Assembly (NCBI GenBank): GCA_902728285.1
Contig: CACVBU010000614.1
Location: 1,129,098-1,193,097 of the forward strand
Length of the DNA: 64,000 nucleotides
Direction of reading: 5' to 3'
DNA from: Clytia hemisphaerica
Taxonomy: Eukaryota > Cnidaria > Hydrozoa > Leptothecata > Clytiidae
Each line of letters starts with the position of its first letter. The first letter of the stretch is position 1. Under the pieces are notes generated by a model, which saw nothing but the letters and a program-made list of their open reading frames with translations, was not told the origin of the DNA and searched no databases. Of the stretch, positions 19,768-59,403 are shown piece by piece. The position numbers were made by a program, and so were the translations under genes.

Positions 19768-22700
19768 ATGTCAAAGAAGAACTGCTACTTATACACGCCC
19801 CTCATACCGCCCACGAACAACAACAATGGCCAACAGCAATCCTTTCATCAAGAAAGTGAATCGGAGAATGAGGAAAAGTCAAACACGACGTTTTTTTCGC
19901 TTTTCTCCAATTTAAGTCAAATTTGTAAGTTATTTTTATTATAGTTGACTTTCTCTTAGGCTTTCTCTCTTATTCGATCTAAATATAATTTTTCGAACTA
20001 GAGAAATATTTGAATTGCAGAAACATTTGAATTAGAGCGAGTTGACTTTATAGAAAACCATGTTTGATAGCTACACTTCAGTATCTGGCTTTTTCTACCC
20101 ATTTTTTGTAAAATCCTTAACTCTCAATTCTTTTAGCATTCCCTGCGGCCGGCATTTCAATACAAGAACTTAGCCAAATAGCGCCAGGACCTCCAGACTT
20201 TGACCTACAAGAAGTTTATTTCCCAAAAGAAATTTGCAAAAAGCAGGTATGACATTGTACATCCAACTCTACTATTTATATTTTTTATGAAAACTTTATA
20301 ATAAAGGTTTTGTGAAGTGGTGCCTTCACACAAGAAGATATTGCTTGCTTCAACGTGTTTCTATTGTTAATTCGACGTTGGTGAAAATATATTGAGAATT
20401 TAGCTTATTTCCTCGTTTTTCGAAATTTGGAGTTCGGGCGAGAAAGTCACTTTTGGGCTAATTGATAAATTTATTTTATTCAAGTATTTCAATTCGGGAT
20501 GGTTTATAGACTTCCAGGCTATATTCTGAGCCCTATTGGACTATTTTTGAATTTTTGGATCCTCAAATCCTAAGCTCCAGAGTCTTAAGTCTAGCGTTTA
20601 AACTCAGAGTTAAGAATCTACCCTTCCAACCTATTTTCGAGCGCTCCTTTTTTCGCACCTATAAACAATAGAAAAATGTGTCAAAAAAGGATTGGATCGA
20701 GTTTAGGGGGATAATTAAATAATTAAGTGCCTGACCGCGTGACTACGGTCAAAAAGGTGTATTATAAGATTCTTTATGTAATTTATACAGGTACGCAGGA
20801 AGCAGAAAGGAGCATGTGCAGTCAATTCAACACAAAGACCGAACAGCGACGATATCAAATTCGATCTCATCTTCAAAACAAAAGATTGCAACAACATAGT
20901 AGCTGATATTGATGTCAATGTATTCAAAGTCCATAACAAAGCTCAGTCTCGCGTCAAGTCATCATGGAGATGGGTTAATAACACTGTAAGTCAAATTATA
21001 CACCCCCTTCTCACAGACCCGGTAGGATTTTTTCAACCTGTGGGGATAAAAATAAAGCACTCAAACTCAGTGGGGATAGATATTTCCATTGTTTTTATGG
21101 CTGGGGATTATTGTCTTTGTTTTATTGTCAAGTCAGAAATTCAGTGGGGATGGGGAAAATAGCATGATATTTTGTAGTGAGGATTGGTTTATTTGATTAT
21201 TTTCAGTGGGGATAGAAATTGGAAGATATAATTTTCCACCAGGGACGATATTTTGGCCAATTTTTCCAGTGGGAAGGGGAACCCTGGTGGGTCTGTGAGA
21301 AGGGGTGTAATTATATATGGTGATGAGGGCTGACCCATAGTTATCGGATCCTTTTGATACACTCACAACTACATTCGACCCTGAAATTCTGGGAACCAAA
21401 CCTATATCATGATACCGTGAAAAGCACAGCTCAAAATCATATATTTACGCTGTGCCGACGAATCGAGATTCTATTCATCGCGCAATCAGCGAAGACAAAA
21501 GTAACCATGACGACCATCCAAGATCTTGGATGAGCGTCATAGTCGATATTTTTATTACCGTCGTTGAAAACACAACTTACAAAAAGTCATCAATGCTTTG
21601 TAAAAAGAGTCAGTGATAGAGAATCATAACATAAAGTCTTTCTATTATTTCGATTTAATTAAAGTGACATTTCCATATAAAAGTTTAGTAATTACTGTTA
21701 TACATTTGGGGATCATCTAAAAGATTTCTTTCGAAATAAACTCATTTCAACTACACTTGGAGGTTTCTGGGGAATTCGTAAATAGTAAACTGCATACTGA
21801 TACAGTCTGCTAGACATTAATATGGTAATATTTTCTCTTCATCTTTGATTTTTTCTACAGTGATTAGATTGACACATGCGCGATAAAATTTCTATTATTT
21901 GTCTTCAGAGGTTACTATTTTCTTTGAAAACTTAACCTCTGATACTCAGGGTAATATCATGATGGTATATCATGATATTGGTTTTGTTAGTAATCCGTCC
22001 TGCTTTAGTAAATGTCTTCAAAATTCGTAGGTTTAACTGAGAAGTAATTTATTTTTGAATTGCTTCTGTTTTTGAGAATAATTAGAAATTTCCATTTACA
22101 GATTCGTTTGGAAATTAACATGAACGAAGTCGAAGATAATAAAATCTACAAACTTCTCACAACACCAAATATGGAGAAAAAGAAATACTACTTCACTATT
22201 ACCGTCAAATACTCTACTACATCCAATGATCATTTTCAACGATACTTTCCGACGCATGCGCATAAAGAAGAGATGGCAAACGAAAGAACCAAACAAACGG
22301 ATTTCTTCTATCTCATTGGAAGTGAGCAAACCAACGAATCCAAACGAGCTAGAACGACAGGTATCTTTTCAAGCTGTCACATAAGGTTGTTTTAACGTCA
22401 ATTTAAAGTTGTATGAAAGTTGTCAAAAGACTGACCAAATTCGAGAAAATTCGAAATTCCTTTTCGATGAACACTCCATTAAGCTTTATGGGATCGTGAT
22501 GAAATCTTAATGTTTTGTTTTTTTCTAAATCCACTTTTTTCAATCATCTCTGTATAAATTTCCATACCAGCTTCGGTCAGCTCTGCAGATTCAGCTTTGG
22601 GAACACCATCACCGTGGCTTCAATCACCCCAAGCATATTCACCACCTTTGTCTTTGAATGCCGATATAGAAAGCCCACCAGTGCCACAGGAGGCGCAAGC

Positions 22701-28530: not shown

Positions 28531-28552
28531 ATGAAATTGTATTTTAAGCGTA

Positions 28553-28730
28553 CGGTTGACTCTCTCTTATTCGATCTTCCAGCGACCAAGAATTTCTCTT
28601 CGAAGTAGAGAAAGATTGGAATAACAGAAAGTATTTCATACTAATTCATACTAGCTGCGGGGACAGATATTTGTGTTCGAATTATAGAAAGATTCGAAAA
28701 GTAGAGGTTCGAATTAGAGAGAATTGACTG
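28553..28730. mobile_element. CAGTTGAC-family MITE with TA duplication, in the 3' UTR of gene B
   Basis: The ends CGGTTGACTCTCTCTTATTC and GAATTAGAGAGAATTGACTG are flanked by TA (28551-28552 and 28731-28732). Transcribed as part of the 3' UTR it would form a hairpin of about 180 nt. Confidence 0.75.
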
Positions 28731-29334
28731 TAAATATTACAATGTGATACAGCAAAAAAGACAACAAAAATGACACCTGGAATAATTTCTTAAGTCACAA
28801 AAACGAAATTTTACATCAAATATGCTGTTCCTATTCTTGTGCAGGGGTTGCTGTCATAATGTTGTGTATATATTTTGGTGTGAATATTTTCAGATAATGA
28901 TGATTTTTTTACATTTTCAAGTACTTTTGTGCCATGAAGCTGGATTATCAAACTTTTTACGTAATGTTATAGATATGTATAATTTTTTATATTTCCCTTG
29001 ATTTCAAAACTATATGATTGAATGATTATGATTTTATGATCCTTGTCGGTTGATATAGAGGGACGGTCGTTAGTCTGTTACCAATTTCTTCTCGGGATTG
29101 GCTCATTAGTTCTTTCTGATTTTTTGCACAATGATGCAAAATGGTAATAACCAAAATGTGACGGAGTCCAATTTTCGATAAAAAAAGATCTTTAGCCGTA
29201 AAAATCAGATTTTTGTATTTGGGCATTTCTGGATGTTTTAAATCTTAGATGGACGTTTTATCATAGTCATTATAAAAAACCCTGGTCTGGTAATGTATTG
29301 TTTAAGCTTTATTGTCAACTTTTCCTTTGTTTTA

Positions 29335-29340
29335 AATAAA
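29335..29340 (+). promoter_or_regulatory. Candidate poly(A) signal of gene B
   Basis: It is an AATAAA 805 bp after the stop codon. I saw no nearer canonical signal. Confidence 0.4.
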
Positions 29341-29552
29341 AGACAAGTTGCGATTTGCATACTTTTTGATCACGTTACCCTTTTCGACTCTTGGGATTGG
29401 TTAATTTTATAATCACATGATCAAAAGGTATGCAAAACAAATCAATTTAAGGTAAGCAAGCTCTAACTGTTAATAATAGGAAGAAACAAAAGACTTACAG
29501 ACCGGGGTTTTTGATAATAACTATGGTTTTATGGACGCTTTGTGGCAGCTGC

Positions 29553-29894
29553 AATCAAGGTCATAATATTTGAGAAAAAAAGGGAAATCAACCGGGCAGT
29601 TTTTGAACCACAATCGATTTGTAGGTGCTCTAAAGTAGGTTGGAAGGGTAGAGTTTTAACTCTGAGTTTTAACATGAGACTTAAGACTTACGACCTTAGG
29701 ATCTGAGGATCCAAAAGTTCAAAAATAGTCCAATAAGACTCAGAATATAGCCTGGAAGTCTGCCAACCCCTCCCAAATTGAAATATTCGATTAAATTAAA
29801 AAGATAGCCAAAAATCGACTTTCTCGCCAGAACTTTAAATCTTGAAAAACGTTAAAATAATCAAAATTCTCAATATATTATGACCTTAATTGTG
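29553..29894. repeat. Dispersed ~330-bp repeat, best-preserved copy
   Basis: The termini AATCAAGGTCATAATATTTG and ATATATTATGACCTTAATTG are an inverted pair, suggesting a non-autonomous transposon. It holds one unit pair of the TTTTAACTCTGAG motif that is amplified at 45321-45522. Confidence 0.75.
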
Positions 29895-30108
29895 GGTACA
29901 TAAACATCATTTTAATAATCTATATCTTTAAGGGTTACTTTTGTAAAATATATATAATATATTAGGGTTCATCATTCATAGTAAAAATGAGAATTTGAAA
30001 ACATTTTTTTGATGTTTCCAAACGTTTGATGAAACTCTTTTGATATTCTTTTATTTCCATATCCATATTTCCTTCACATCTACTTTCACTTTCTTTTTCT
30101 TTTTCTAG

Positions 30109-30195: not shown

Positions 30196-31375
30196 ATGAT
30201 GCCAGAGAACTCACATGGTGGGCATTTAAATGCACAGGTACCAACAAACACTGGTATGTTCAAACCAACATTCAGTTCGAACCACTTGAATCAGCCTAAT
30301 GTGAGTGACTTCGAAACCGAACAATATCAATCTACACCGCAACACCAAAATTGTGTCACACAGGCGAATAGACAAAACTACGAAATTGGAAATGGTCAAC
30401 CTTTTACAAACGCACCACTGGATAACGGATATCAGAATTGCATACATAACTTTGACTTTAATGGAAATGTATTTTCCAACCAACAAGAGCAACAACAACA
30501 ACAGCAACAACAAGACTACACTATACAGTCAAATATGCAGCAAGATAATTACGGTACTAGTAACGAATACAACCAAATAAACTCATTAGACCCGCAATTC
30601 ATCGACCCACAATTCATTGCACAAACATTTGGCATCAGTGGTAATGCAAATCACCAATCAAACACACAACAAAACTCATTCAACAATTTTAATAATCCCG
30701 ATATGCAGAACTCGACTAATACTGAAAATTTAAACTATTTTTCCCATCAAACGAACCACCAGATTGATAATACCGATATGCAGAACTCGACTAATACTGA
30801 AAATTCAAACTATTTTTCCCAACAAACGAGCCACCAGATTGATAATCCCAATATGCAGAACTCGACTAATACTGAAAATTTAAACTATTCTTCCCAACAA
30901 ACGAGCCACCAGATTGATAATACCGATATGCAGAACTCGACTAATACTGAAAATTCAAACTATTTTTCCCAACAAACGAGCCACCAGATTGATAATCCCA
31001 ATATGCAGAACTCGACTAATACTGAAAATTCAAACTATTTTTCCCAACAAACGAGCCACCAGATTGATAATACCGATATGCAGAACTCGACTAATACTGA
31101 AAATTCAAACTATTTTTCCCAACAAACGAGCCACCAGATTGATAATACCGATATGCAGAACTCGACTAATACTGAAAATTTAAACTGTTTTTCCCATCAA
31201 ACGAGCCACCAGATTGATAATCCCAATATGCAGAACTTGCCTAATACTGAAAATTCAAACTATTCTTCCCAACAAATTATCCAATACAAGGATAATATCT
31301 CTTCTCAAAACTCCAGTCCAGGCTTTGAAGATATTTTGGATATTTTGGATATGGAAACCAGCGACGAATCAGAAA
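30196..31375 (+). CDS. Gene C exon 1: N/Q-rich low-complexity domain
   Basis: This single 1,180-nt exon is uncommonly long for the family (157 and 184 nt in B and D). It encodes asparagine-, glutamine-, serine- and threonine-rich sequence with almost no hydrophobic core and no signal peptide. It ends in a short acidic patch (FEDILDILDMETSDESE) just before the donor, typical of an acidic-hydrophobic activation segment. The composition fits a prion-like or transactivation-type region; activity is inferred. Confidence 0.85.
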
Positions 31376-34300
31376 GTAAGAACAAAACATGGAATTTCAA
31401 TACAAATGTTCCATAATCTAGCCCTGAGAGGGCTGGGGGCACTGACCTTGACATCCGATGGGGACATGACGCTGGAGTTTGAAAAGTGGACCCTGTTAGA
31501 TTTGAGTATATTTCGGACCCGGTCTTTCCACCCGGAAAAGTGGTGAAAGTGACCAAGAAGACGAAAAATTGAAATATTTTCTTATTCCACCCAGAAAATT
31601 GTCCAAAATAGCTAAAAGTCAAACCTGTCAGATACATTTCTTGGAAATTAGTAAATTTGGAACCTTGCTAGAAATCTTACGTAAGGGCCTAAAATGAGAC
31701 ATTGACTAGTGGCACGTCCCCATACCCAATTTTGCCCAAGAGCCTCCCAGAATAAAAATGTTCTTAACATGTTCTTAGCATTTCGGCCATTGAAGTCTTA
31801 TGTTCTTATATAGTTTATTCTTCTAAAAAAACGTGTAAAAGCTTTTGAATTTGTATTTAGAAACATCACCAGAACAGACCAATCACCTTTCACCTTCAAA
31901 ACCTCCGGACTTTACTATTGAAGAAGATGTCTTCCCTAGAAGTCCTGTTAAGTCTCAGGTAAACATTGGCAGATCTAAAGAGGGCTTATTAATGCAAATT
32001 TATTTTTGGACCTTCAAAGTCCTTCTAAGGGTCGTAAAAATCACAACATCTAATTTCATTTCGCCTTTAGGGATACGAAAAAATCAAAAACTCTAATATT
32101 TATCCTTAAATAAAAAGGCTAAATTCCCGGGGGGGGGGGGTACTACCCTTGTCGACCGACGGGGGTGCTCCGCTGAGGTTCGAAAAATGGACCCTACGTG
32201 GGACTCAAAATTTGCGAAAAAATGACCCTGAGTGGGACTGAATTTCCAAAAATTTCTCAAATTTTCGACTTTTTCCCCAAATTTTCCAAAAATAGGCACC
32301 CTACGAGGGACTGATTTTTCTATTTTGGTGTTTTTGCGACCCTACCTGGGACTCGTGGAGGTTCAAAAAGGTACCCTGACCAGCGGAGCATCCCCGTAAC
32401 CCATCTTGCCCTAGTACCCCCCCCCCCCCCCGGGGCTAAATTTTAGGAAAAAAGTCTCGGTAAGGGCCCTAAAATTGAAAAAAAATTCGGTTTACTAATT
32501 TTTTTACAAATGCTTTTTTTTAGGTACGAAAAACAGTTGACAAGAACATAGACTCCCGTCAAAAGCCCAAAGCAGAAAACGTTGTCCTAAATCTCGTCTT
32601 TGATGGGCCTCCTCATGAATTGGATTGGGTGACAGAAATTAAAGTTTTTGTACACAATAACAAAAGAAGTAAGAAAGCTCAAATTTATATTGAGCGAACA
32701 GACCGGATGAAAAAGGTTGAACATAATAAGGTATATATTTTATTTCATTAGGTTTTCTAATATTTTTTTTATTCATTTATTATCTTTTGTACAAGCATGC
32801 ACGCTTTTTATAAGAACATCTAAAATTATCTTAAGCTTGATGCTATATGTAGTGCTATAGCCTAAAAGTAGAAATTTAAAATTGTTCATGCTTAATAGGC
32901 ACTCCCCCCCCTTAATAATTTGATATAATTTGCTCAGAATTTAATACCTTATTCGGTGGAATTAATCATTTTCGTTTAATTCGACTTTGAAAAATCTTCA
33001 AATTTTTACTCATTTCGTGGGCTATAATGTCAGTTTTTTGGTCATAAAAAACTTTGCCAGGTCAAATTTGCACGCAGGCCCCCTCCCAAAAAGGTTTTGA
33101 AATCCTATCTACTTTCGAACCAATCACATGCCGTTGCGTCCCACAAAAGATGCGATGGATCCTAAAGGTTTGACTCTCTACTATTTAAGAATCATATTAC
33201 TGTTATATTTTCAGATAAAGCTGACTTTTGATTTAAATAACTTGGTCGAACCTGAAGACCAAATCTATGAGCTTACAACATCTCGAAAAAAAGATTCAAA
33301 AAAGTTTCACTTTTCCATTGAAGTACACTACAATTGTTTTGAGAAGCCAACTATCAAAGAAACCAACTCTTTTACTCTCTTTGGTTCCGAAAAAGCAAAG
33401 AAAAATGCAGGTAATGTGGAGCTAGTCTATCAGCATGCCTCTCTCCTCTAAGGTCCCAAATAAACGTCTCCCCCAGGTTATTAATTTTCCCCGTTTTTAT
33501 TAGGATCTCCTAATTTTTGATAATATTTTCAGCAATCAAAATCTGAATTGGTATGAATACCTCATCATGAGGTTTTTAGAGGTACAATATCCTACACTCT
33601 CTCCCCTGGAAATTCGGGACCTTAGAGTCAAACCCTGATAGTCAAATAGAGTCCATTGCAGTGCAAGTCGCGCACTACCGATCGGCAGAATGTTAGAGAG
33701 GCACAGTGATAGCCTGATCCAGATGACGAATCAATGTATTGTTACCGAGTTTATCGTTCTACATCTGTCTTATTTTGGACATCTTTTTCGGAAATGTTTG
33801 AAGAGGCAATGTTTTTTGTGAAAGTCAAGATATCGCAACCGTCAGCTCAATGCGTATCCCAGCTTGCACACAACGTTGTTTCAACGTTCATCTAACGTTA
33901 TATGGACGTTGTGAACACGAAATAAACGTCAAAACAAGTGTTTGCACCAGCTGGATAAATGAGAACTTCAATCAACAAATGGAGGAAAACTATGCAACAA
34001 TTCGACTTTTGACAGTCTTTTCATCGATTTTTTTTAGAAAAACCAAAAACCAAGAAAAGAAAAGTAAATGAACCAATAGGTAAACTGAATTAATTTCTAC
34101 TTCAAACGATCCAATTGTGAACTGGTAGAAAATAAGATACATTCTGACATTCTGATTGATGGGCTAGGCTTCAATAAACAGCGAGGCTACATATTTTGCA
34201 CTTATGGGGGCGGTTGAGTGACTGAAGCGATTTGACCTGCTATATCTAGGATGGTAAAAGTGCTAATTTACTGTTGTCCTCAGTCAGTCAGGATGTATCC

Positions 34301-41749: not shown

Positions 41750-41755
41750 AATAAA
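41750..41755 (+). promoter_or_regulatory. Candidate poly(A) signal of gene C
   Basis: It is a canonical AATAAA 261 bp after the stop codon. Confidence 0.5.
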
Positions 41756-43371: not shown

Positions 43372-46300
43372 ATGTATGAAGACAACTCACAAAGAGAGCC
43401 TTTGCTCGCCGCAGCTGGTGGTACTGGTCAAGAAAACTTTCAGCCTCAACAACAACAACAACAAAATGGATTTTTTGGTGGATTCAACTTTGGTCAATAC
43501 CATCAATATCCTTCCTTCCAAACAGATGGTTCTTTGAATTTCCCAGCTGTTCCAGGTTTGTGTTTTGTCAAAGGTTTTTCATATTTTGTTGAGTTTGCAT
43601 AATCTCTGACATTATGGAAGCAAATCTTCCATTTTTTAGAAGGCGATCCCTTACACACGCTTCGAATGTTTGTTTCTATAATGGCGGAACCTTTATACAC
43701 CCTATAATACCCTCCGGGTATTCAGTATTCAGTTAAAATTGTTGTCCGAGTATGTGCAAGCCATAAGGGTACCACAAACCATAACACATCAATTGAGTTT
43801 TTGATCGGGTCTTAAAATTAAGGACAATTTTTCCGGCTCGGACGTACCCGTCACCTCACAAACCTAGTAGTCTTCTTTCTGACCAATCTTGCTCCACAGT
43901 GACTTGCTCCACATCCGTGTCAATGCAATATCAAAAAGCTTGTAAATTAAAACTGACGAGTAAGCAAACGATAAAAACAAAATCTTTAAGGACGTCTTTT
44001 TAGAACCCTCAAAATCGCACTGAGGGTTGTGTAAAAGCCTATGAGCTTTTTTTTTATTTTTTGGCGTTTTTAAGCCTTATAAAGTTGTTAAACTCTACGT
44101 TTCTTTTCATCATCAGGGTCAAATCTACCACAGTTATCAGGTGCGGATTTAGACTTTTTACCAACTGAACCGCCAGACTTTATCATTGACAATGCTGTTT
44201 TTCCAAAAGAAATATGCAAAAAACAGGTACTTGAAAATATTTTCGAAATTTCTTCCTTTGTTTGTCCGTACGTCTATCCATCCGTTCGTTCGTCCGTCCG
44301 TCCGTCTGTATTTATGCTTATCTAAAGTTTAAATTTCCTACAGTCACCTAGACTTCACTTAGTCATAAGCTGCACTTCCCACTAGTAAAGCGACTTTAAT
44401 TTCGATAAGTCAAGCTAAAAACTTCTCGGTAATTTGCTCAAACTCGTCAGATAGACAATTCTCACCGAGACAGGGGTGAAGATGTATAGATATGATTTTT
44501 TTTCAAAAGATAAGATTTCGAAATCTCATACCTTGCAATCACTTGCACCATTTCACACTATTTTAATACCAAGTTTATGTACGTGTGTTTTTCTGCGACG
44601 GAGACGGTAAGGTTCTAATTCGTCTACATCCTGACCAGCCCTCAGCTGAGGACGACGGTAAATTAGCACTTTTGGTCCTCGATATTGTGGGTCAGAACTG
44701 CGGGTTTTTCCGAATCGCTTCAGTCACTTTACCGTCCTCAAAAGTGTAAATACATAAACTCCGTAATGATGCGCGTGGTGCCACAATTTTCGTGTGTTGT
44801 ACCATAATGGAAAATGGACTGAGGGACTGTGAACAAGCTTAAAGCATACCTAAATTTATCTCTTTCTTCATAGCAACGAAGGAAAGAAAAGATGACACAG
44901 ATGGTAAAGTCGGTACAACGAATCAATTGTGATGACATCAAGCTAAATATCATCCTTCAGACGACCACTAATTCATTAGAATGGGTGGACAAAATTGACG
45001 TCATAGTCCATAATCATTACAAGAATATTAGATCAGAAGTTCAATCAAGCTGGAGAAACTTCAACAGATTTAATACAGTAAGTATTTAAATAAATTTTGT
45101 GTCGTGATAGCTACTCGAGTTCTTTTTCCTTTCAACACCTCCGTTCAGCTCATGGAAGCAGATTCGGTTGGTCGTGGACCCCCGCGAAAACAGAAATACT
45201 GTCTAGAACTTACTGAGCTACAAACATGGTCGTAATATTTGAGAAAAAAGGCAAATTCCTACGAAATCTTATAACCACAAACGATTTGGAAGTGCTCTAA
45301 ATTAGGTTGGAAGTGTAGAGTTTTAACTCTGAGTTTTAACTCTGAGTTTTAACTCTGAGTTTTAACTCTGAGTTTTAACTCTGAGTTTTAACTCTGAGTT
45401 TTAACTCTGAGTTTTAACTCTGAGTTTTAACTCTGAGTTTTAACTCTGAGTTTTAACTCTGAGTTTTAACTCTGAGTTTTAACTCTGAGTTTTAACTCTG
45501 AGTTTTAACTCTGAGTTTTAACGCTAGGGCTCAGAATATAGCCTGGAAGTCTATAAATCCCTCCCGAATTGAAATACTGGAATAAATTTATCAATTAGCC
45601 CAAAAGTGACTTTCTCGCCCGAACTCCACATTTCGAAAAACGAGGAAATAAGCTAAATTCTCAATATATTTTCACCATGATTGTATCCACAATAAATATC
45701 GACTCTTATCTAATCGTGCAGTCACCCAGCCCCTTGATTTTTTAATTGATAGTGCTTTCGTTAACCTACCAGAGCAGTGCCGTAGCAACTGGGGGGGCAA
45801 GGGGGGGCTATGCCCCCCAATAATTTTTTCAAAAATGGTTATTTTGAAAAATGCAAAGTTTTTATTTTTTAATTTGTCATAATTGTCTCTATGTGCATGT
45901 TTTGAGTGTATTTTTAAGCAATCTAGAGCTCAAATTTTCAAAATTTCCCCCCTCGGGCCAAACCATGGTTGGCCCTCGCGGTGTCACTAAACTTCAGCCC
46001 CCCCAATATGAAAATGCTTCCTACGGCACTGCAGAGATTTTGCCTAAATATCCCCTTCCTCAGGTAAGGTCCAGCTAGAGAATGCAATTCAACAATGATA
46101 ATGTCTTCGTCTACTATGATAAAATCCTTTCAATTCCAGATTCGTTTGGAGTTCAGTTTGAACGATGCTATAGACCACAAAGTCTTTGATCTTCCAAAAT
46201 CTCCAGACAAAGAAAAAAAGAAATTCTCTTATCTTATCACCATCAAATACAAGAACGTCTCAAAAACAGTCACAAAGGAGACCGATTCGTTTTACTTGAT

Positions 46301-49300
46301 CGGAACGGATAACAAGCGCCAAAGTTCAGGTATGCTCAGCGTGTTAGTCTAGAATAGACCTTTTCATAAATTACGTCACGAACATCACTTGCCTCGTTTT
46401 GAAATTATTGCCATGGTGATTATGTTCCTAGATACATTAAATGATTTTTTTGTGAATAGAAAGTAGTTGCAATGAAATCCGCTGGGAGCTAATCACCATG
46501 GCAATAATTTCAAAACGAGGCAAGTGATGTTCGTGACGTAATTTATGAAAAGTTCTATTATTAACCTTCAGTCAATATTCCCTGGAAAAATATTGTTTAG
46601 ATTTTGTTGTAATATTTTTTAAATAAGCTCAACACCGGGTAGCTGTTTTCTTCATTAAAATAATCGAAGTAAGCTTTAGTCGAGGATGAAATCCTAATAC
46701 CCTTTTAAGGGTTCATCCGAGTTTTCATTCCAAAACATGCAGAACAATATTTCTATTCAAACTTGGCTCTGCCCCTTCTGTGTAAGGAAAGTACTGTTTC
46801 ATCCATAATTAAAATCATTTGTCAAAACAAACTTTTTAAACAATGGATTGAAATGATTGGTTATTTTTTCACATGTTTTGTTTATGTATCCACCCCCTTC
46901 TCACAGACCCACTGGAATCCCTTCCGACTGGAAAAATTGGCCTAAATGTCGTCCTCATTGGAAAATTTTACTCTAATTTTTGTCCCCGCTGAAAATAATC
47001 AGAAAAGCCAATCTCCACTGCAAATTATTGTGCCATTTTTTCCATCCTCACTGAATTTTCTGACTCGAAAGCGATGAATTACAAATCCCCAGCCATAAAA
47101 AAGAAATGGGAATATCAATCCCCATCAGGGGGGGGGGGGTCAGTAGTAAAATCTCAGACATAATGAGGTTTACTACCGTGGTGGTGTGACAAAAAATGGA
47201 AAAAATTTTTTACTACCCAGGGTAGTAAAATAACAAAAAAGGTGGTATCTATGTGTAAATTTTTGAAAAACTTTTACTACCCGGGTAGTAAAAACTGGTA
47301 AAATTAGCAAATTTTAGCTATTTTTTGCAATATTTTTAATTTTTGGGATAATTTTTCTGGAAAAAATCTGAAATTTTTTATAATTTGAAACAAAATTTCT
47401 GTTGGAAAGTTGTTTGCTGCAAACAAAAAATTCTTGAAATTTTTTGTCAATATAGAAAAGACTTTAATTCTAAGGACAAAACCTAAAAATAGAGAAATAA
47501 TGATTTTTTAGCTCTTTTTGAAAAATTGGTCCAAAAAGCGACCAAAATTTAGGTGGTCTCTATGTCAAATTGTCCCAAAAAAATTTACTGCCAGGGTAGT
47601 AAAATACCTCTTCCAAGAATCTGGGTGGTGGTATGTAAAATTTTGTAAAAATCCTTTTACTACTCATATATGTCTGAGATTTTACTACAGACCCCCCCCC
47701 TGTCCCCATCGAGTTTTACTCCGCTATTTTTACCGCCACTGGCTGAAGAAATTCCACCGGGTCTGAGAGAAGGGGGTTTATGTATCACGTTGTATGAAGT
47801 TTGTTTTCTTTGTAACTTTACTTTTATGTCCATTTGACTTTTCACAACTTTCACCCCCAATGCATGACATTCATGACGTAAAGTCTTCTACGGAAACGCT
47901 TCGGTTCTTGCTAGTAGTGGAGAAAATTCAAGAGATTTCAACTGGAGAAAAATTGATTAAAATTCGCTACTACTTACCATAACCAGGGTGTCTCTGTAGA
48001 AAACAATACGTCATGAATATCATGAATAAAATACCATCATCATCACACACAACAGGTAGCACATCAAACAATGAAGAACTTGAACGCCAAATCAAACGAA
48101 CAAAATCTGACTCTTTTAATTCAGGTACCAAAAAATAAGAAAATAAAATAACAACAAAAACATCTAATGACATCAACTAAACATTCAATAATAAAAAACT
48201 AGGTCACAGTGTGGATCTAAACCACACTGAAACGACCGCCTTCCATCGCGCATCACGCTCGCGAAAGAGCGCGCGCACATTATTAACGCTTACATGTCAT
48301 GTACCAGATAAACATGTCATCTCCAGTACATTTTAGATTATTCATTGAAAACAGATTACAATATAGTCATTTTTCATGTCTCGATTATTCAATTCCGAAT
48401 ATAAGACATTCAGGGGAAAAAAAGAGAAACACCTGGGTAATCTAGTTAAAAAAGCCGAAAGTAAATGGTAGACAAAGTAATGAGCCAAGGTAAAACGAGA
48501 TTAGCTCACCACTATGAAAGAAACCGCCTCCGGCGGTCGATAATTACTACTTAAATAACGACACAGAGATTACTAACAACAACGACAAAAATATTGATTC
48601 TCCGAAATTTACACGGATCCCTCGATAAGGAAATATAAGAAATTTATGAAACGCTCCCTAAGCTTCTTTTGCCGAACCTAGGAGTCATTAGCTGTCAATG
48701 AGGATGATTAAATTGTCCAAGTTAGGGAGAACATCCCAAAATCTAGGTTTAGTTTAGTGATTTCATGGAAAAAATCTTTCTCACTTTTCAACGTTATCAT
48801 TCATTCTCTCATTAATTTATTGACTTTTTTAATTGGCCCCTGCTTATAACCATATCCACTTATGTATATTAGCGGGTGAGAATATCCTTTTGCCACCGCA
48901 CATATATTTTACTGATCCAACTAATACCAACTAATCATTATATTCATTTTGTGTGTATTGTATTGTTCTGTTTCTTGCTTCAGTATTTGTGAGAAAATTT
49001 TCTTTTCCTCAAATTACAGACCTATACGTTGTTTTTTTATAAGAACATCCAACTTTTTTGAGTTTTAAGCCTAAAAATTTTCCTAACATACTCTTATTTT
49101 CCCCATTTTTTGCGTATTTTTATCCATTTTCTTAAGAAATCGGGTGTTTTATAGTCCGCAAAGCCTTAAAGTGTTCTTAACATGTTCTAAACATTTTGGC
49201 CATCTAAGCCTTATGTTTTTACATAGTTTGTTCTTATAAAAAAACGTGTACACACATTGAAAATAACAAACACAGATAGCGCAGTTGGGAGAGCAATCGC

Positions 49301-52300
49301 CCGGCAAGCGAGAGGTCGTGGGTTCAATCCCCACTCGATTCGTTACCTTTGAGAAAACTGGGAAGTACATTAGTGCAGGATCCGTTGATTCATTACCCAT
49401 AAGTAATACGCACTTGATTTCACACAAACACAGTTTGGAAGTGACGATTTTTTGTACAAGGTAACAAACTTTTAGGGAATTACCCACAAAATGGCGAAAA
49501 TAAGAACATGTTAAGAACATTTTAAGGCTTCAATCTGATAAAAGCGCAGCTCGTTAAAGACGAGCAACACATCATTCGACCCTCATTACACTGTACTGTA
49601 ACGAACTACTTCTTTTTCTTTCAGTGAGTTCTGGAGATTCTGGAGTTGGATATTCACCGAGCGCCCCTTCATGTAAGATATACATTATAACCTTAATCTT
49701 CTCTGGATCTTCCTTATTAGAAATTAACAGGTTTTCCATACTCCTTATCAGACCTACTATTTGAGATCTGTTTTTATGCCAGTATGTAATTATATATAAC
49801 CATACATCTGTGGAATTTATTGACTTGCCGGTTAATTTTACAAGCACTTGCTATTCTCTCGCTTCTAAAAAAGGACTTAAGGCTTGGGAACACGAGCAGT
49901 TTTTTTCACGTTTGTACAATGCAACATGCTCCATCCCACCAACACAGGAAGTCCAAAAAAGGTACCCTTAAGGGCGGCACATACCGTACCCTCAATTTGC
50001 CTAAGTACCCCCCCCCCCCGGGCTGGCATCAAAGAATGAAAAGTTCATTTTTTCTTCTTCATTTTCAAAAAATTTTAAAATTATTTTTCTCAAGTATATA
50101 TTGCAGTTCTCTGATTTATTCTGAATTTAAAGATCTTTTTTACGCTTATAAAAAGGAATTTTGAGTCGCATTTTTATAGGAATCTTTTTGTTTTTAATGG
50201 ATTGAGATTTTTCTTAAGAAAACGGGGTATTTACGACCTGTGTGTACAATACAATGTGTATATTTTGTGTAACGCTTCATTCAAAATCCATAATGCTGCC
50301 GGAGCCACGTTTCACGCGTCTTCGTCGTTGATGTTCTAATATTATGCGAAATTATCGACTTTAAGTCGTCTTGTTTAATTTTACAGACGAAGGCAACAAC
50401 AATGGTCAACATCAACAACAACAACAGCAAAGCAGAATATTGGACGAATATTCACGTATTATAACCGATCGAATTGAAACGAAGACTCTTTCACTTAATG
50501 GTACGGAATTCGATGGAACATCATTCAAAACGGAACGCCATGACATTGGCTACCATTTTGAATTAGGTGATGATGATGGAAATTTCGAAGAAGGTATGAG
50601 CACCACTGAACTCTAACTACTTGACTGGATCGGGCTTATCGTATAATGGAATCGTTTTAAGGTTTAGAGCTGACAAGTCCGCCATCTTGTTTTCAGTTTT
50701 GGTCGTTAATACACCTTTTTGACCGTAGCCGCCAATTGCCGCGCGGGTATTTTTTTGTCCGCTTTATCCTACTAAAACCGTCCCCGTCTTTTTTCGCACC
50801 TATAAACAAAAGAAAAATGTGTTAAAAAAGAATTGGATCGAGTTTAGGGGGATAATTAAGTAATTAAGTGGCACGCACCTGACCACGCGACTACGGTCGA
50901 AAAGACGCGTGTATAGCGCGTGATTCGAATGTTTTGAAATTTGACGTTCTAGAAATCTTAAGGTAAAATAGAAAACAACATGGCAGACTACTCGACCTTA
51001 AAACCAGACACACTTTTCCACGCGAAATCTGTGAGCTTATCTATGTGTTTATATTGTATAAAACTATATCTTATATGAAACTTTAAATGGACCATTTGCG
51101 TCCCTAACTGAACTAAAATCCTGCCCCATCTTTTAATGCGACAGTAGACCTATGTGATGGTGATTTGTTTCAAGAAGACTTTCATACTCGCATCACGCTA
51201 TCTAATGGACCGAACTTGACTTCTTCTTTTTGCCGCATTTTGCTTTCAGTAAAGAAATTCATCAACGGGATTTAGGCTCGAGTTTGGATGTAATCATGAT
51301 TTACTTTGGTTTAGAAGCACCCCTGTGTCACAGACCCGGTGGACCCCTGCCCCGGTGGAAAAATAGGCCAAAAGATCGTCCCCTGTGGAAAAATACCATA
51401 TAATTTCAACCCTATTGGAAAATTGCTCTATGATTTTATCCCCATTGAAAATTGAATGGAAAAAGTTTCACTCCAAAAACATCCCCACTGGAATTTTTGA
51501 GCCAGAAACAATAGATTTTCTATCCACATTGGCATTTTGATAGAGATTCTCATCCCCACTGAGGGAAAAAGTTCTACCGGGGAATTGAGACAGGGGTGTT
51601 TAGAAGGGTACTGGCTATGGCAAACTGAACCAGATTCCTTTGCAGGGTTTAGGGTTGATAAATGTATTGACAGTGTTTTCTCTACTTCTTTGCAATCAAC
51701 AACAGGTGAAGTAGTTGGTCTGTCCGCTATAGAAACGTACGATGCAGATGTTGATCAAAACTCCATTCAAAAATTGGCCGTTGTCAAACTGACCAATCAG
51801 AATGCAAAAGACGCCATTTTGAAAGGTGTTGTTACGAAAGCACCATATATTGAAGCTTATTGTCCAAAGAAAAATTGTAAGTACAGTGTGTATTTTTGTC
51901 TTTTGAATGTAGATAGTCGGGCTGAAACGATATCATGCGGGACAAGTGAGTATAGAGGTTAGGTAAGCATAGATAGACAATTTGTTGGCAAAGGTTGAAA
52001 GCAGTGTGGCTCGACCAAAATTGGGGCAAATATAGGAAACAATTTTCGAAAGTTGGGATTTTGGCGCGCCCTAAATGTAAAATATAGGTGTAAAAGTAAC
52101 ACGAGCGAAGCGAGTATGAAAATTGTTGGGTATTATTTTTTTTCTGCTTATTTCAAGGTGATTATTTAAAAAGCAAAGGGGCGCTGAAATTAATCATTTT
52201 TGCTAAAGAGATTAGAATAAAACATTGCAGTCGACCGTCTCTAATTCGAAAGGGGAATTAGATTTTTATCTTATTAGGGAGCGTATCAAATAGTAGAGCG

Positions 52301-55300
52301 TCGTTTATGAGAGTTTCTTGATGACGATGACTTGTAGAATTATCAAAAAATGGAGCGTATCGAATTGTAGAAAGTCGAATTATAGAGTAGAATGATATAC
52401 TATTTTTATTTCTTTTCACCAGCCAACAAACGGACCATTATCATCTGTATGATGGGTATTGTTCCAGTTCAAGTCATTGGTTCTGTGCGCACAAATGAGT
52501 TTTTATACGCAGCTCCCAACAACCCTGGGTTTGCAGTCGGTGATTACGACTTGGGAACTAAAAGCGAGAAAAACGAAGCAACTTTTATTGGTGTAGCATT
52601 CAACTCGCGCTTGAACAGCGGTGATAAAACTGTACGTATTTCTTTGTATTTCTACATGCCCTCGTATTTTGTGGTCGGTTAGCTCAGTCGGTAGAGCATT
52701 CGTCTTACAATCCAAAGGTTGTGGGTTCGATCCCCGGTCACTGCTAACTCAGCGAATGCTAGGCAGTAAGTTACTGGGAGTTGAGAGTAGATATAGCGTT
52801 CTATCTCAGCATTAAATGGAAAAAGTGACGAAACGAGGATAGACTCCCTCAATCCCGGCTCCACCGACAGCCACTACAATCCTGGCCAAAAGTAAACGGA
52901 ATTCCACTTATTCTACGGTACTGTTTTTATGGCTCCACTCCCCCTTTCCCTCTCTACTATGTTGCTGAGTCAAGTTGTACTGAAATTCAACATTGTATAA
53001 GGGGGTAAAGGGGGAACTTGTAATTCATATAAATAAGTGAGGAATTCCATTACACTTTTGGCCAGTATTGTAGATGATTATACTTACTTCATTTTTGTCA
53101 GTCTCTCGAATGGTGTGAAGCATGGGCACAGATTTCTGTAAAGCCCAAAGGGCTAGATGTCGTGCTTCAAGCTCTTCCAAGCAAAAAAAGTGAATATCGC
53201 AAAAAAATATTGCTGGCACTGTTTTCGAAAACCCGCAAAGCTTCGCTTATTGGTCAAACACTGAAATTCTATGGTAATGTCACGTCACCTAGGTAGGATT
53301 TCCTTACCTAACCTCGCACACTTTTCAGCCAAAGCACGACTTCTAGTCCTTCGGGCTTTATAAATCTATGAGTATGGGCTGTAAAGAGGCAAAATTAGAG
53401 GATTTCGTTTTAAAAGATAAGAACTGAATTTTTCCAAGAAAACAAAATTTCTTATCACTACATCGAGAAAAGTCAAAACGCCGTTTCACAAATGATAGCT
53501 TTTGTCTCTTATTTTTTAGGTCGGTATAGTTGAAGCAGGGGTATCACTCATGCAAGCAGCTTCACAGCATTTAGTCAATGAAAAACTGAGAGACATGGAA
53601 ACTAGTTTGGACCACAAGATCGAAAGAGTGAACAGGTCAGCAATTCGATGGAGGAAATGTGAGTTTTACCAACCAACCAACTTGTCTTTTTCTCTAAATG
53701 AATACACCTAAAAACATTTAAGAAGGTTACAATATAACACCCCCTTCTCACAGACTCACTGGGACCCTTTCACACTGGAAACGGTGGACAATTATCCTCC
53801 AATTTTTGTCCCCACTGAAAATAATGAAATAAACCAATCCTCACTGCTAATTTTCCCATCCCCACTGAATTTTCTGACTTGAAAACAAAAGAATTAAAAT
53901 CTCTAGCCATGAAAAATATGGCAATATCGACCCCCATCGAGTTTCAGTCCGCTATTTTTATACCCACTGGCTGAAGAATCTTACCAGGTCTGTGAGAAGG
54001 GTGTCTTATTTTTTTGTTTTCCTTTCAAGTGCAAAACCTTTAGAGTAAAGCCTAGTCTATTATGTAGACTATACTTTTTAGCTGTTTTATAGAATTTTGA
54101 ATAAACTACGGACGGCTCCTGGACGGCTGAAAAAAAGTAAATCAACGACAGCATAATATTTTCCCCTCATTCTAGCAACTACTTATAAAAATTCAGCGAC
54201 GAATTTAGTACCTGAAAAGTCTCCTCCAAAACTGAGACAACAAGAAACAATATAAAATGTAATTTTGAAATCTTTCTTTTTGCCACCGGAGGAAGCCTAA
54301 AAGCTGAAGATGGCATTCATAGCTTCACGCATAAGGAAGTTGGGCAAACATCTCATAATTTTGCGCGTTTTTCAGTATTTTAGTTCCGCTTAACGGTAGC
54401 ATTCTTATCTTACGGTCTCTCTATTGTATTATCATCATCAAAAAGACTTTTCCGGAGTTATTTTGATCTGATTACTCATTTTGAAACGTCAGTTTGTCTT
54501 TTTCTTATACCTGGAGAGTTAAATGAATCTAAGGAAATGCCCTTTTCCGGGAAATTCCCTTTTTATACCACAAGTAGTTATTAAGCGCTCTTCACAGGTT
54601 ATAAATATTACTCTACTCAAAGTATTCAAACAGTTATGTTGCTAAACGTGTACATTAGTAAAATAACAGTATCTTCAGATATATACGCTTTTTATAGGAA
54701 AAACCAGTACGTCATATGATTCTGGCTGGGCTGCTCTTAAATTTATATGAGTTTTTCAGCCTTAAATGTCAATATTAATTAAAACGGAAACGTGTACTTC
54801 TCAGTAATTTCTGAAATCTGAGGTTCAGATTCTTCCTAATTTGTTCTTAGGTTTTGGCCAAATTTCAGCCTCGTATTCTTTTGCAATTGTTCTTAAAAAA
54901 ACGTGTAAGACAAGGCACGGATGTCACCTTAAGTAGACTGTAAATCACTCCCTTGACACATTTGTTAGCATTTGAAAGAATTTTGTCTCAGATGAGAGGT
55001 CACTCTTAACAAAAATTACTGTAGGGCTAGGATCATTTCTTTTGAGCGCAAATTCAACTCTATGTGTTCGTTTTGCTGCGGTGGCAACTTAATGAAAGTT
55101 ATGGCTAGTTTAAGGGACAGAGCCTACAACATTTTTAACACGGAATCGAATTTTTTCAATAGCTAATATCACATTAAAGGTTTTACCTTTTCATAAGTTT
55201 TCCCGTTTCATACCAGAAACATATTTCATATCAGGGCAGTGTCTGCCTTTTGTTATATTATGTGTCTCTTATAAGGGCATGAAATGCAAATGCTGTAGAT

Positions 55301-58300
55301 CTCAATTTTATAGTTTGATTATAGATTGCATCCATTTAAACTTTTAAAAAATGGCATTAAAATGTTAATATTTTCAAAACGTCATCAAACGGGTTCAACG
55401 ACAAATTTTCCAAATAAATACATAGATTTGCCGATTGATTCAAATGGTTGCATCTCTTAAAATGTTATCTCCAGCATGGTTTACGTTTGTAGTCCGTAGT
55501 TACGTTAAAGCTTGACAATGTTTCGCCCAATCTGTTTCCAATCTTTTTATAGCCATCCTGTAAAATAGAACAAAAATTCATTATTTTTAGCTTGACAACA
55601 ATGTTACAGTATGACATTAATTTTCATTTGATAACAATGTAACAGATTTATCAGGGACACACCAATAAATTTATTGCTCTTAAATTAATTATGGCTGGAA
55701 TGCAGACGTCCTGCCAATTCAGTAAATATTTGAATAAAATTTGTGTGGGATGGAATGATGCTAAGGGGTATTTCAGAACTATATAGAATTTCTAAACTTT
55801 AGAATCCCAGCAAAGTACGATGCTGGCAGCATTTTTGACATGATTTATTCTCTCCCAGCTTTGTATTTCCACAAAGCGCAATAAGAAACTAGTCAAACCT
55901 TTGAAGTACCAAACCAACACGTCAATTCTGCAAAATTAGCATCATGTTTAATAACCCCTACTGTACACTATACCCAGTACAGTCAGACAGTTCAGAGATT
56001 AAAGAGATGAACAAACAGGTTAAAAATTACTTACTTTTTTATCAACTCAGCCAACTTGCCAGCTTGCCAGTGCAAAATGCATATATATAATCCAGATCAG
56101 AAAGTCAGTGGATGCCACTCAAAATATCCAAGATCTCTTAGTCTTTCTTTACCAATCAATTTTCTGTATTCCTTCTTTATATCCAGTTTCTGGTTTAGAT
56201 TTGAACATGATTGAATCAATTTTGAAATTAAATTTCTCAAGAAGTTCGAAACTTTGGTTTCTGCACCAGCGGAGGTGAATGAGGCAAAAACAGCTTGACA
56301 ACAACGTCATTTCAGCATGATTTTCAAATCAAATTTAGTGGAACTTCTAGGCCATGAATGGGTGTGAATCCCATTTGATTCTTTCAAGAAACCCTTGATC
56401 TATCACCAGTTGACCATTCATTCCCATTCATTCAAAATAAGCCAAGATTCAGGTCCATCTCTGACCACAACAAATTCAAAATAAAAGCCTGTCGGATTTT
56501 AAAAGGTGCAAGTGTCGGATGACTTGTCTCGATGAATGTAAAGTTTGAGATTGATTCCTTTTTGGATGTTGGTACATGAATCATATTCAAATTCACCAAT
56601 CAAAACCCCATAGTTCAGCCTCGTATTCTTTTGCAATTGTTCTTAAAAAAACGTGTAAGACAAGGCACGGATGTCACCTTAAGTAGACTGTAAATCACTC
56701 CCTTGACACATTTGTTAGCATTTGAAAGAATTTTGTCTCAGATGAGAGGTCACTCTTAACAAAAATTACTGTAGGGCTAAGATCATTTCTTTTGAGCGCA
56801 AATTCAACTCTATGTGTTCGTTTTGCTGCGGTGGCAACTTAATGAAAGTTATGGCTAGTTTAAGGGACAGAGCCTACAACATTTTTAACACGGAATCGAA
56901 TTTTTTCAATAGCTAATATCACATTAAAGGTTTTACCTTTTCATAAGTTTTCCCGTTTCATACCAGAAACATATTTCATATCAGGGCAGTGTCTGCCTTT
57001 TGTTATATTATGCTGATATAAGCGAAAAACTAATTTTCTTTTCCTCTTTCTGACCAATCTTTCTCCACATCCGTGTCAATCCAACGTGAAAAAGCTTGTG
57101 AATTAAAATTGATGGGTAAGCAAACGATATCACTTTTATTTACAAACAAAACCTTTAATACCTTTATTCCTTTATCTCGTAGGTTTTTGTGGATCAGCCA
57201 TTTTGTTTGGTATTCTACTGGGCTTATTGGGTATATTTTTATGGCAGAATTATACACCAGGCTCTGCTTACAAAAAATGGAAATGTAGATTGGGCCACAA
57301 AGAACCATTTCAAACAGCTATAATGAATTTCATTCCAAACAATTTGGATCAGGTAAGAATACCAAATACAGTATGCCCAAGAAAGGACTTCCGTGTATAC
57401 CGTACTTATGGCTACTTTTTAGAATAAGTTCGCTTAACAATCAAATCATGGGCCCCGGCGAGCCATTTTAAGTGAGGGGGACCAACATTTTGGAAAGAAA
57501 ATGTCGCCCACCATGGTTGGGCGATCACCTTTAAATGATATCTAATTGGGAAGAATAATAGTTTTTGTGGTTTGATTTGGTCTCAAACCAGCTTAAAATA
57601 GTAACTCTTAAAAACGTATGACATGGTCTACGAAAAAGCTACCCCCGTTGACGGGGCCCATGCAAATGGGCTATTCCAGAAAAAATTTATACCCCTTCTG
57701 TTGAGGAGATATTTTTTTTAAAGGTGATTCCCCTGTATTATTTTCCTCACATTTCTTCGAACCACACTGAATTTTCAATCCGATTTTACCGACCACCCTG
57801 GATTTTACAATTCAAAAAACCAGACCATCCCAGCTGGCACACAACGTTGTTTCGACGTTTTTCTAACGCTCACAACGTCCATATAACGATAGAAAAACGT
57901 TGAAACAATGTTGTGTGCCAGCTAGGATGGATTCTTCATTTTCCAGGCCACCCTGGATGTCACACCTCCTCAACATAGGGGGTACAGACTATTTCTGGAA
58001 TAGCCCAATGAAAATAATTCCAGTGGAAATCCAAATTACCAAATATTTTGAGAGCTGGACGTTCATAAAAACAAATTGATATTAACTTATTTCACTTAAG
58101 TACGACCCCCTTAATTTTACTGCTTTGAAAGGTTGGAAACTATGAAATTGTTCTATTAATTTCATTTTCACCGTTTTTTTTTTGTAAGATTATGCTCCTT
58201 TCATTTTAATTTACTTTTTATCTTTCCTCTATATTTACTAAATGAAATTACTTTTTATTCATATTACAGTTGGTGGAGACATACGGTATTGAATTCACTT

Positions 58301-59403
58301 TAGAAGGTTTAAGGAAAAAGATTGGTCACTCAGAGTATAAAGCTATTCCCGAAGTTGTTGATGGCATTTACGTTGGGAGTAAGCAGATTTGTTCTTAAAA
58401 TGTTCTTATTTACACCATTTTGTGACTATTTTTACCCATTTTCCTTAGAAATGGCTTAGGGACTCGGTGGGTATTGAACTAAGGCCATTATACCACTACG
58501 CCAGATTTCATAACTGGTTTAAAAGTGCAAAGATTTTACTCTTTTCTCAACTGTGACATAGACAAATTACAATCTTGAATGTCACTCCCTCCATAAGTTG
58601 ATAAATTAAATATTTTTTAAGCTTTTTGGCAAACTTAGAACTTATCTTAACCGTAGATTAGGCTGCAAATGTTCGTCTAACTAGCTTTAAGTCCTAGGAT
58701 ATCTCGCAATCCCGGACAGTTCAGTGGTATAGTGAAGGTTAGCCTGGAGATCCATGCTATGATTTCTTCTTTTATATACTGATGGTGAAATGAATGGTAT
58801 GATCTGGGCTAAGATTTTGAGCTTCCCAGAAAACAAAGCTAATCAAATTTTGTTATTCTTTCACTGGTCACACTTTGTTAGAGAAAACGCAAGTTCCGAA
58901 ATTTGGTTTAATTTAATTTTAGTAAGAAGCGAGGACAGTGCTAATTTCGAATTTCTCACTGTAAATTTTTCAAGGCAGAAATCTACTTCACAGCTCGTAC
59001 CCGTCCTGTATATATCAGAGTATAAAAAAACAGGACGGGTTTCCTGTCTAAGTGATGGTCCCATTGCGCATTAAAGCTGATGAGTGTCATATTAATTCAT
59101 TAATTTGTGGTAATTCAATGATTTTCTTTAACTCTTTTTTGTTCAGAAAATCCACATTATATGCTCGGCTTCTACCGTTGCGCCTATGGTAATGCAATGA
59201 TGTACGAAACAGAATCCGGTAAAAAGATCTACAGGGGACCGGAAAGTTTCGTTGTGGACGAGAAATGTCAGCACACATTTTATCATCACGACCGTAAAAA
59301 TATTTGGGTACGATATCTCAGTGTGAATGCTATTACAGATCCCACAACACTGGTTTGCAATCCAGCGCTGAAAAGTAACACCACTACGAGCAGGGATGAA
59401 TAG
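43372..59403 (+). CDS. Gene D: predicted type II membrane protein, tandem family
   Basis: Exons: 43372-43555, 44117-44226, 44874-45077, 46140-46329, 48056-48124, 49625-49672, 50387-50593, 51706-51876, 52423-52631, 53520-53658, 57183-57352, 58270-58378 and 59147-59403 (TAG). They join to 688 aa. Residues 1-61 are Q/G/F-rich with a polyQ run. PPDF lies in exon 2. The beta-rich domain spans about 99-229 (KIDVIVHN, IRLEFSLNDAIDHKVFDL, DSFYLIGTD). Two linker exons carry a basic RQIKRTK. A second polyQ run is near 274-279, followed by DIGYHFEL and EVVGL (270-394), GIVPVQVIGSV and LYAAPNNPG (395-464), VEAGVSLMQAASQHLV, and basic RWRK. The membrane helix is at 511-531, then PGSAYKKWKC and an ectodomain with RCAYG, DEKC and VC. 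Exons 2 and 10 keep the length of gene B (110 and 139 nt), and the VEAGVSL helix is almost the same, so B and D are the closest pair. Function is unknown. Confidence 0.88.
43877..43995 (+). repeat. CTCCACATCCGTGTCAAT intron repeat, short copy (gene D intron 1)
   Basis: It has TTTCTGACCAATCTTGCTCC, a small internal duplication (GACTTGCTCCACATCCG), AAAAGCTTGTAAATTAAAA and GAGTAAGCAAACGATAAAAA. It is homologous to 10675-10800 and 57040-57165. Confidence 0.65.
45222..45684. repeat. Dispersed ~330-bp repeat carrying an expanded minisatellite
   Basis: This is a direct copy of the dispersed repeat (ends CATGGTCGTAATATTTGAG and AATATATTTTCACCATG). Its TTTTAACTCTGAG motif has grown to a long array (45321-45522). 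It lies in gene D intron 3. Confidence 0.75.
45321..45522 (+). repeat. 13-bp minisatellite, TTTTAACTCTGAG x ~15.5
   Basis: About 202 bp of essentially perfect 13-bp repeats, with no visible unit variation until the last (TTTTAACGCTAGG). In the other copies of the host repeat the motif occurs once or twice. Confidence 0.95.
46353..46559. mobile_element. 207-bp near-perfect hairpin MITE (gene D intron 4)
   Basis: The arms of about 80 bp are almost identical inverted copies: TTTTCATAAATTACGTCACG on the left pairs with CGTGACGTAATTTATGAAAA on the right, and CTCGTTTTGAAATTATTGCC with its complement. It starts 23 bp after the splice donor at 46330. Confidence 0.85.
46891..47778. mobile_element. 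MITE, CACCCCCTTCTCACAG subfamily, split by a nested element
   Basis: The ends CACCCCCTTCTCACAGACCC and GGGTCTGAGAGAAGGGGG bracket a subfamily copy interrupted by 47128-47700. Removing the insert restores the normal order: ATCAATCCCCATC joined to GAGTTTTACTCCGC. Confidence 0.8.
47128..47700. mobile_element. Nested 573-bp element with G/C-run termini and 8-bp target duplication
   Basis: The left end is a G run then GTCAGTAGTAAAATCTCAGA. The right end is TCTGAGATTTTACTACAGAC then a C run. Direct repeats TCCCCATC lie at 47119-47126 and 47703-47710, and the host MITE normally has that sequence once. The interior repeats GGGTAGTAAAA. The 8-bp duplication suggests hAT-type mobilisation. Confidence 0.8.
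47863..48024. mobile_element. ATTCATGACGTAATG hairpin MITE, copy in gene D
   Basis: The arms CATGACATTCATGACGTAAA and ATACGTCATGAATATCATG pair, as do TCTTCTACGGAAACGC and GTGTCTCTGTAGAAAAC. It ends 31 bp before the linker exon at 48056. Confidence 0.75.
49270..49342 (+). mobile_element. tRNA-like sequence inside an AAGAACAT repeat (SINE or pseudo-tRNA)
   Basis: It has a D-arm AGCGCAGTTGGGAGAGC, an anticodon arm with four of five pairs and loop CCGGCAA (anticodon would be GGC), and a perfect T-arm GTGGG-TTCAATC-CCCAC. The 7-bp acceptor stem does not pair, so it is not called as a functional tRNA. Inverted AAGAACAT repeat pieces flank it on both sides (49026-49255 and 49480-49535). Confidence 0.65.
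51318..51600. mobile_element. MITE, CACCCCTGT family (gene D intron 7)
   Basis: The ends CACCCCTGTGTCACAGACCC and GAATTGAGACAGGGGTGT are clear. The open frame that begins at 51537 starts in this element and runs into the exon at 51706; the MITE part is not coding. Confidence 0.8.
52671..52880 (+). mobile_element. tRNA-derived SINE, copy 3
   Basis: The best-preserved head: A box TAGCTCAGTCGGTAGAGC, CTTACAA loop, B box GGTTCGATCCC. It then has ACTCAGCGAATG, TTACTGGGAGTTGAGAG and the shared GATAGACTCCCTC. It starts 40 bp after the donor of the exon at 52423-52631. Confidence 0.85.
53739..54005. mobile_element. MITE, CACCCCCTTCTCACAG subfamily (gene D intron 10)
   Basis: The ends ACACCCCCTTCTCACAGACT and AGGTCTGTGAGAAGGGTGT enclose about 267 bp with CCCCACTGAAAATAATG and CCCCATCGAGTTTCAGTCCG. 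Confidence 0.8.
54864..55262 (+). repeat. 399-bp direct repeat, left copy (gene D intron 10)
   Basis: It begins TTCAGCCTCGTATTCTTTTG and ends TGTTATATTATG. It is nearly identical to 56614-57012 (I noted one difference: GGCTAGGATC against GGCTAAGATC). The two copies start 1,750 bp apart. Confidence 0.95.
55263..56613. other. 1.35-kb insert between the 399-bp direct repeats
   Basis: AT-rich, with no long open frame and no match to other repeats in the window that I can see. It contains several AGCTTGACAACAA strings and TTTCCAAATAAATACATAG. It separates sequences that are contiguous in the related repeat at 10590-10800. Confidence 0.6.
56614..57012 (+). repeat. 399-bp direct repeat, right copy (gene D intron 10)
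   Basis: This copy continues directly into CTGATATAAGCG and the CTCCACATCCGTGTCAATC block (to about 57165), the arrangement also seen at 10640-10800. It is therefore in the ancestral context on its right side. Confidence 0.95.
57183..57352 (+). CDS. Gene D exon with transmembrane helix
   Basis: It encodes GSAILFGILLGLLGIFLW followed by QNYTPGSAYKKWKCRLGH. The helix is glycine- and leucine-rich (GxxxG-like spacing), which could favour helix packing. The preceding exon ends in basic RWRK. Confidence 0.9.
57829..57926. mobile_element. AACGTT hairpin MITE, copy in gene D intron 11
   Basis: The ends are CCCAGCTGGCACACAACG and TGTTGTGTGCCAGCTAGG. It is inserted in a larger imperfect inverted sequence (GACCACCCTGGATTTTAC ... 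CCAGGCCACCCTGGATGTC). Confidence 0.8.

Follow-up and report, generated by a model that had tools for sequence, protein, structure and literature searches.

Tandem genes of Clytia hemisphaerica encode predicted single-pass membrane proteins with a putative phage-type module and a MYRF-like order of parts

We analyzed a 64,000-nucleotide stretch of Clytia hemisphaerica DNA (the window) that holds a tandem array of genes for predicted membrane-tethered proteins. Stop-to-stop reading frames and self-comparison of the window revealed one exon series present in four multi-exon copies, all on the + strand, confirming the tandem family that an initial annotation had proposed; these paralogues are called A to D. 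Gene models were built from splice signals and likeness among the copies, with the following results.

7695..16247, + strand: gene A, a 3'-half type without a beta domain, from tblastn and self-comparison, with a layout like that of the relative P0007; exons 7695-7828, 8929-9085, 10855-11060, 11457-11595, 13560-13732, one near 15083 (ends unfixed), and 16039-16247
20137..28530, + strand: gene B, 597 aa without its first exon, from exon-by-exon likeness to C and D; exons 20137-20246, 20791-20985, 22102-22360, 23026-23178, 23930-24088, 24740-24945, 25764-25902, 26859-27031, 27686-27803, and 28247-28530
30199..41489, + strand: gene C, 987 aa, 13 exons, matched by P0006; exons 30199-31375, 31861-31958, 32524-32730, 33215-33410, 34038-34079, 34676-34774, 35493-35627, 36111-36281, 36583-36788, 38540-38666, 39313-39488, 40737-40857, and 41281-41489
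43372..59403, + strand: gene D, complete, 688 aa, 13 exons, no internal stop, matched by P0001; exons 43372-43555, 44117-44226, 44874-45077, 46140-46329, 48056-48124, 49625-49672, 50387-50593, 51706-51876, 52423-52631, 53520-53658, 57183-57352, 58270-58378, and 59147-59403

All internal junctions in the B, C, and D models are AG/GT and in phase, as are those of the first five exons of the A model, whose sixth exon is unjoined. Gene D, whose model ends at 59403 as the initial annotation had it, is identical to P0001 (EukProt protein TCONS_00067879) in 675 of 688 aligned columns, with the ends of two linker exons picked by similarity to P0001. Gene C is identical to P0006 (TCONS_00067876) in 921 of 998 columns, and the repeats of the two are not the same. 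The first exon of B was not found in the window, so its start is absent from the model, and no transcript protein for A or B was seen among the family relatives retrieved by protein searches. We consider the four-gene array and its layout to be real.

Those searches yielded P0001 to P0004 and P0006 to P0009. Numbers of the TCONS type are in use for Clytia transcripts in one published account (PMC9525680). The origin is known or inferable for P0001 and P0006 (Clytia-type) and for P0009 (Hydra vulgaris LOC105843326, uncharacterized), and on this basis we conclude from the sequences that the family spans at least two hydrozoans. The Hydra protein is a genuine relative (36% across the region searched) that has the beta domain, module, membrane helix, and ectodomain described below, whereas the isoform examined lacks a Q/N-rich (glutamine- and asparagine-rich) start and has a weak basic linker. 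For gene A, neither a first exon nor an upstream beta-domain exon was found (the latter by tblastn at E up to 10), in line with the earlier view that only the 3' half is present there. Because P0007, a protein of 403 aa found on a Logan contig, is laid out alike, with stalk, module, membrane helix, and ectodomain and no beta domain, A may be a real family type without this domain, although P0007 is itself possibly incomplete at its start.

The full-length relatives share with B, C, and D the order N-terminus, beta domain, basic linker, short beta-stalk, module, helix, membrane helix, and ectodomain; the parts map to the DNA as follows.

30199..31375, + strand: gene C exon 1, encoding an N-terminal region that is Q/N-rich and bears 25-residue repeats, from repeat finding and the gene model
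34038..34774, + strand: gene C linker exons with EKPKTKKRKVNEP, a predicted SV40-type basic stretch
44117..46329, + strand: gene D beta-sandwich domain, about 140 aa, in the 3' half of exon 2 plus exons 3 and 4; equivalents B 20137-22360 and C 31861-33410
48056..49672, + strand: gene D linker exons with the basic stretch KRTKSDSFNS and DSGVGYS (KRTKSNSFDS and DSGVLS in P0002 and P0003)
50387..52631, + strand: gene D beta-stalk and putative phage-type module, with the DIGYHF motif in exon 7, from hhalign, hmmsearch, and fold matches; equivalents A 7695-11060, B 23026-24945, and C 35493-36788
53520..53658, + strand: gene D helix linking the module to the membrane; equivalents B 25764-25902, C 38540-38666, and A 11457-11595
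57183..59403, + strand: gene D predicted membrane helix and cysteine ectodomain; equivalents B 26859-28530, C 39313-41489, and A 13560-16247

The order of parts read earlier from B, C, and D was thus borne out, while the Q/N-rich start included in that reading is not general: it is long in C, shorter in D, and seen in P0004, with little or no Q/N richness in P0002, P0003, P0008, and P0009. Within C exon 1, a 75-base tandem repeat (30692-31276, 7.8 copies) encodes N/Q/S-rich 25-residue repeats; the P0006 transcript protein has a repeat make-up unlike that of this genomic exon. The beta domain is an Ig-like sandwich, with antibody domains as the best matches among the top Foldseek rows compared. 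The linkers carry different basic stretches (KRTKSDSFNS in D, KTKKRKV in C, KRAR in B, and RKRGRPP in P0008), which resemble nuclear localization signal (NLS) and AT-hook motifs, that of C (EKPKTKKRKVNEP) being presumably of the SV40 type. As a separate observation, sequences resembling a beta-TrCP degron occur in the D linker (DSGVGYS, 49625-49672) and in P0002 and P0003 (DSGVLS), and such a motif would suit a short-lived nuclear fragment. DNA binding by the front half is a tentative prediction, somewhat less likely than not.

The helix after the module leads into a single membrane helix (helix 420-480 in the P0002 model, and by alignment), preceded by basic residues. In the ectodomain beyond it, four cysteines are invariant in all eight aligned proteins; the model of the membrane helix and ectodomain (residues 501-620) has pLDDT means of 59 to 87. 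Since no signal peptide is evident by eye at the N-termini of the B to D proteins or of their full-length relatives, basic residues precede the membrane helix, and the cysteines follow it, the N-terminus is probably cytosolic.

The strand-rich module before the membrane consists of the beta-stalk plus a barrel. For the family, PDB sequence searches returned no match below E 0.3, and no Pfam or NCBIfam model matched at its curated cut-off (the NCBIfam scan covering the module only), the weak Pfam rows (best E of 0.0065) being unrelated families. Single-sequence searches fail for the module; profiles succeed. With a composed consensus of a bacterial domain as bait, natural genes were retrieved from 15 phage and 11 plasmid records, and 11 of these genes (4 phage and 7 bacterial, loci L009 to L019) made up the phage/bacterial profile. 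The family alignment (A11) comprised ten modules, from the eight proteins found plus A and B of the window. When compared by hhalign, A11 and the 11 phage/bacterial C-terminal domains matched collinearly over 144 columns (96.2%, E of 2.7e-9, score 64.0), compared to scores of at most 26.2 for 60 column shuffles and 18.3 for the reversed profile. Phage rows alone scored 60.5 (95.7%) and bacterial rows alone 31.7 (32.1%). In the reverse direction, hmmsearch with the profile of the 11 found all eight family proteins (E of 1.2e-12 to 0.01) above every one of 408 decoys (best E of 2.8). The 11 in turn matched six phage domains of Peptidase_G2, the autochaperone of phi29 gp12 (94.8%, E of 5.4e-8), and Peptidase_G2 (PF11962) was seen in two of nine scanned phage/bacterial proteins, both below cut-off. 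We also found that seven of the ten modules match phrog_22593, of unknown function (best E of 9.4e-4). Together, these profiles indicate that the module is very probably of phage type, homologous to a tail-spike-type C-terminal domain of phages and bacteria on the Peptidase_G2 side. The domain in question (for example, in Agrobacterium phage Atu_ph07 AUZ94958.1) is unnamed and, unlike that of the family, is prokaryotic and lies at the C-terminal end of its protein.

The initial annotation had taken this region for a processing module; homology to the phage chaperone side (hhalign and hmmsearch) upholds part of that view, and the active site does not. The Asp of a D-x-(A/G) motif occupies one common column in 10 of 10 family modules (A11), 6 of 6 G2 domains (A12), and the 11 phage/bacterial rows; a separate motif count presupposes this Asp and merely repeats the alignment result. 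We take cleavage in phi29 gp12, the pre-neck appendage, to occur just before this Asp, such that the D-I-(A/G)-Y-H of the family would correspond to the gp12 cleavage region. The main result against self-cutting, from the alignments, is the loss of the Glu that we take to be catalytic in G2. This residue follows D-x-(A/G) in 17 of 17 phage/bacterial rows, including all 11 of the unnamed domain, and in none of the 10 family rows, where Tyr stands in its place every time. The direct match of the family to Peptidase_G2 is weak (9% over 24 columns), and PF11962 reached its cut-off in none of the eight family proteins (gp12 control, 2.6e-97). The family thus shares with gp12 the Asp-x-Ala/Gly motif and following domain via the phage/bacterial relatives and differs from it in the Tyr and in the helix and membrane anchor that come next. 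In every family row (10 of 10), the motif Tyr is followed by His, and the invariant Tyr-His could be a re-made active site. That the front half is released, by whatever route, is slightly more likely than not, and release by self-cutting is conceivable though somewhat doubtful.

The order of parts invites comparison with MYRF, a trimeric type II membrane protein whose S74-type ICA domain uses a Ser-Lys dyad for self-cleavage and which also has a beta-helical stalk and a C-terminal helix (PMC3742443 and PMC8326128). The documented example of a membrane-bound transcription factor that employs a phage tailspike domain is MYRF (PMC3742443), and a 2026 screen of membrane-bound regulators reported further Ndt80-membrane proteins, seven with an endosialidase chaperone; its section on these proteins has no counterpart of the present module (PMC13294678). 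Like MYRF and MrfA, the family combines a front half, beta-stalk, phage-type chaperone module, helix, single membrane pass, and further domain. In contrast, the phage module is of another kind, and Ndt80/PhoG (PF05224), S74, and MYRF domains, including the MYRF C-terminal one, had no Pfam match in the eight family proteins at E up to 10 with filters that drop most weak matches, which agrees with the lack of direct Ndt80 or S74 similarity noted at the outset. The MYRF-like plan suggested there is supported in part, in the order of parts and, by profile, in the phage-type module. Because the Ndt80 and S74 comparisons were negative at the sequence level, we do not class the family as MYRF, and because the Glu is lost, we do not class it as a G2 peptidase. 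We class it as a new family with a G2-side phage module that most likely works by MYRF's plan, a plan apparently assembled twice, the second time with another phage module.

Gene structure, the transcript-level matches of C and D, and the module's homology by profile were shown computationally, and topology, trimer formation, release, and nuclear action are inferred. The explanation that we tentatively favor, short of an even chance, is that these tandem genes encode single-pass membrane proteins on the MYRF plan, with a different phage-type module, whose front half releases itself and takes on a nuclear role. A trimer would form at the membrane from the stalk, the barrel, and the helix after them, presumably as in gp12; the front half, with beta-sandwich and basic linker, would be freed at or near D-I-(A/G)-Y-H and then act in the nucleus; and the A type could enter trimers and dampen the response. 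Of these steps, self-cutting is the most doubtful, since it would require a changed active site in which the invariant Tyr and His replace the phage Glu. The fullest form of this proposal, in which animals have a second self-releasing trimeric membrane-tethered transcription factor, with a G2-side module instead of the S74-type one of MYRF, a re-made Asp-Tyr-His site, a new Ig-like DNA-binding domain, tandem expansion in a jellyfish, and a damper lacking the beta domain, is unlikely as a whole. If true, a second family with the same part order and another phage module would mean that this design arose more than once, and the jellyfish would offer a system for testing how phage assembly modules turn into release switches in animal cells.

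The same loss of Glu could instead mean that cutting was lost and the module is a folding or trimerization clamp in an uncut membrane trimer, a tethered scaffold or receptor with its cysteine ectodomain outside. This alternative, which is itself rather doubtful, would account for an ectodomain more conserved than the beta domain in most protein pairs and for A and P0007 retaining module and ectodomain without a beta domain. It fits less well with NLS-like basic linkers that stay in place in most members despite differing letters, and with an invariant Tyr and His next to the retained Asp, which suggest function rather than decay. A G2-side phage module in a membrane protein of animals would be unusual even if no cutting takes place. 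Front halves of SREBP and ATF6 are released by intramembrane or luminal proteases, and another protease of this kind might free that of the family, leaving the module for assembly only; the topology predicted here is like that of such factors, and the Glu is lost. We consider this route quite improbable, as no protease site was seen, though none was sought, and we know of no SREBP/ATF6-type factor with a phage module.

A far-diverged true MYRF would explain the shared order of stalk, chaperone module, helix, and membrane pass (PMC8326128). It is very improbable given the Pfam negatives above and the score of only 10.8 (0.1%) between the family and a single sequence, the K1F tail protein end, compared to 64.0 for the G2-side family. 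We take this K1F end to be S74. Equally remote is the reading that these are ordinary extracellular adhesion proteins or receptors whose N-terminus lies outside: the first domain is indeed Ig-like with antibody domains as best matches, but the lack of a signal peptide by eye, the basic linker, the phage-type module, and the position of all invariant cysteines after the membrane helix speak against it.

Several repeats were also noted. The introns of D contain a perfect 13-base tandem repeat (45318-45522, 15.8 copies); two Rfam tRNA matches uncalled by ARAGORN (49275-49336 and 52673-52746, 34.2 and 36.5 bits, respectively), perhaps tRNA-derived repeats; and, in one intron, two near-identical segments about 1.75 kb apart (54808-55344 and 56555-57050), perhaps a recent duplication. 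Dispersed repeats with similar translations lie on both strands at 191-580, 3166-3453, 13758-13850, 21136-21444, 40245-40400, 46946-47074, 51315-51452, and 53712-53879.
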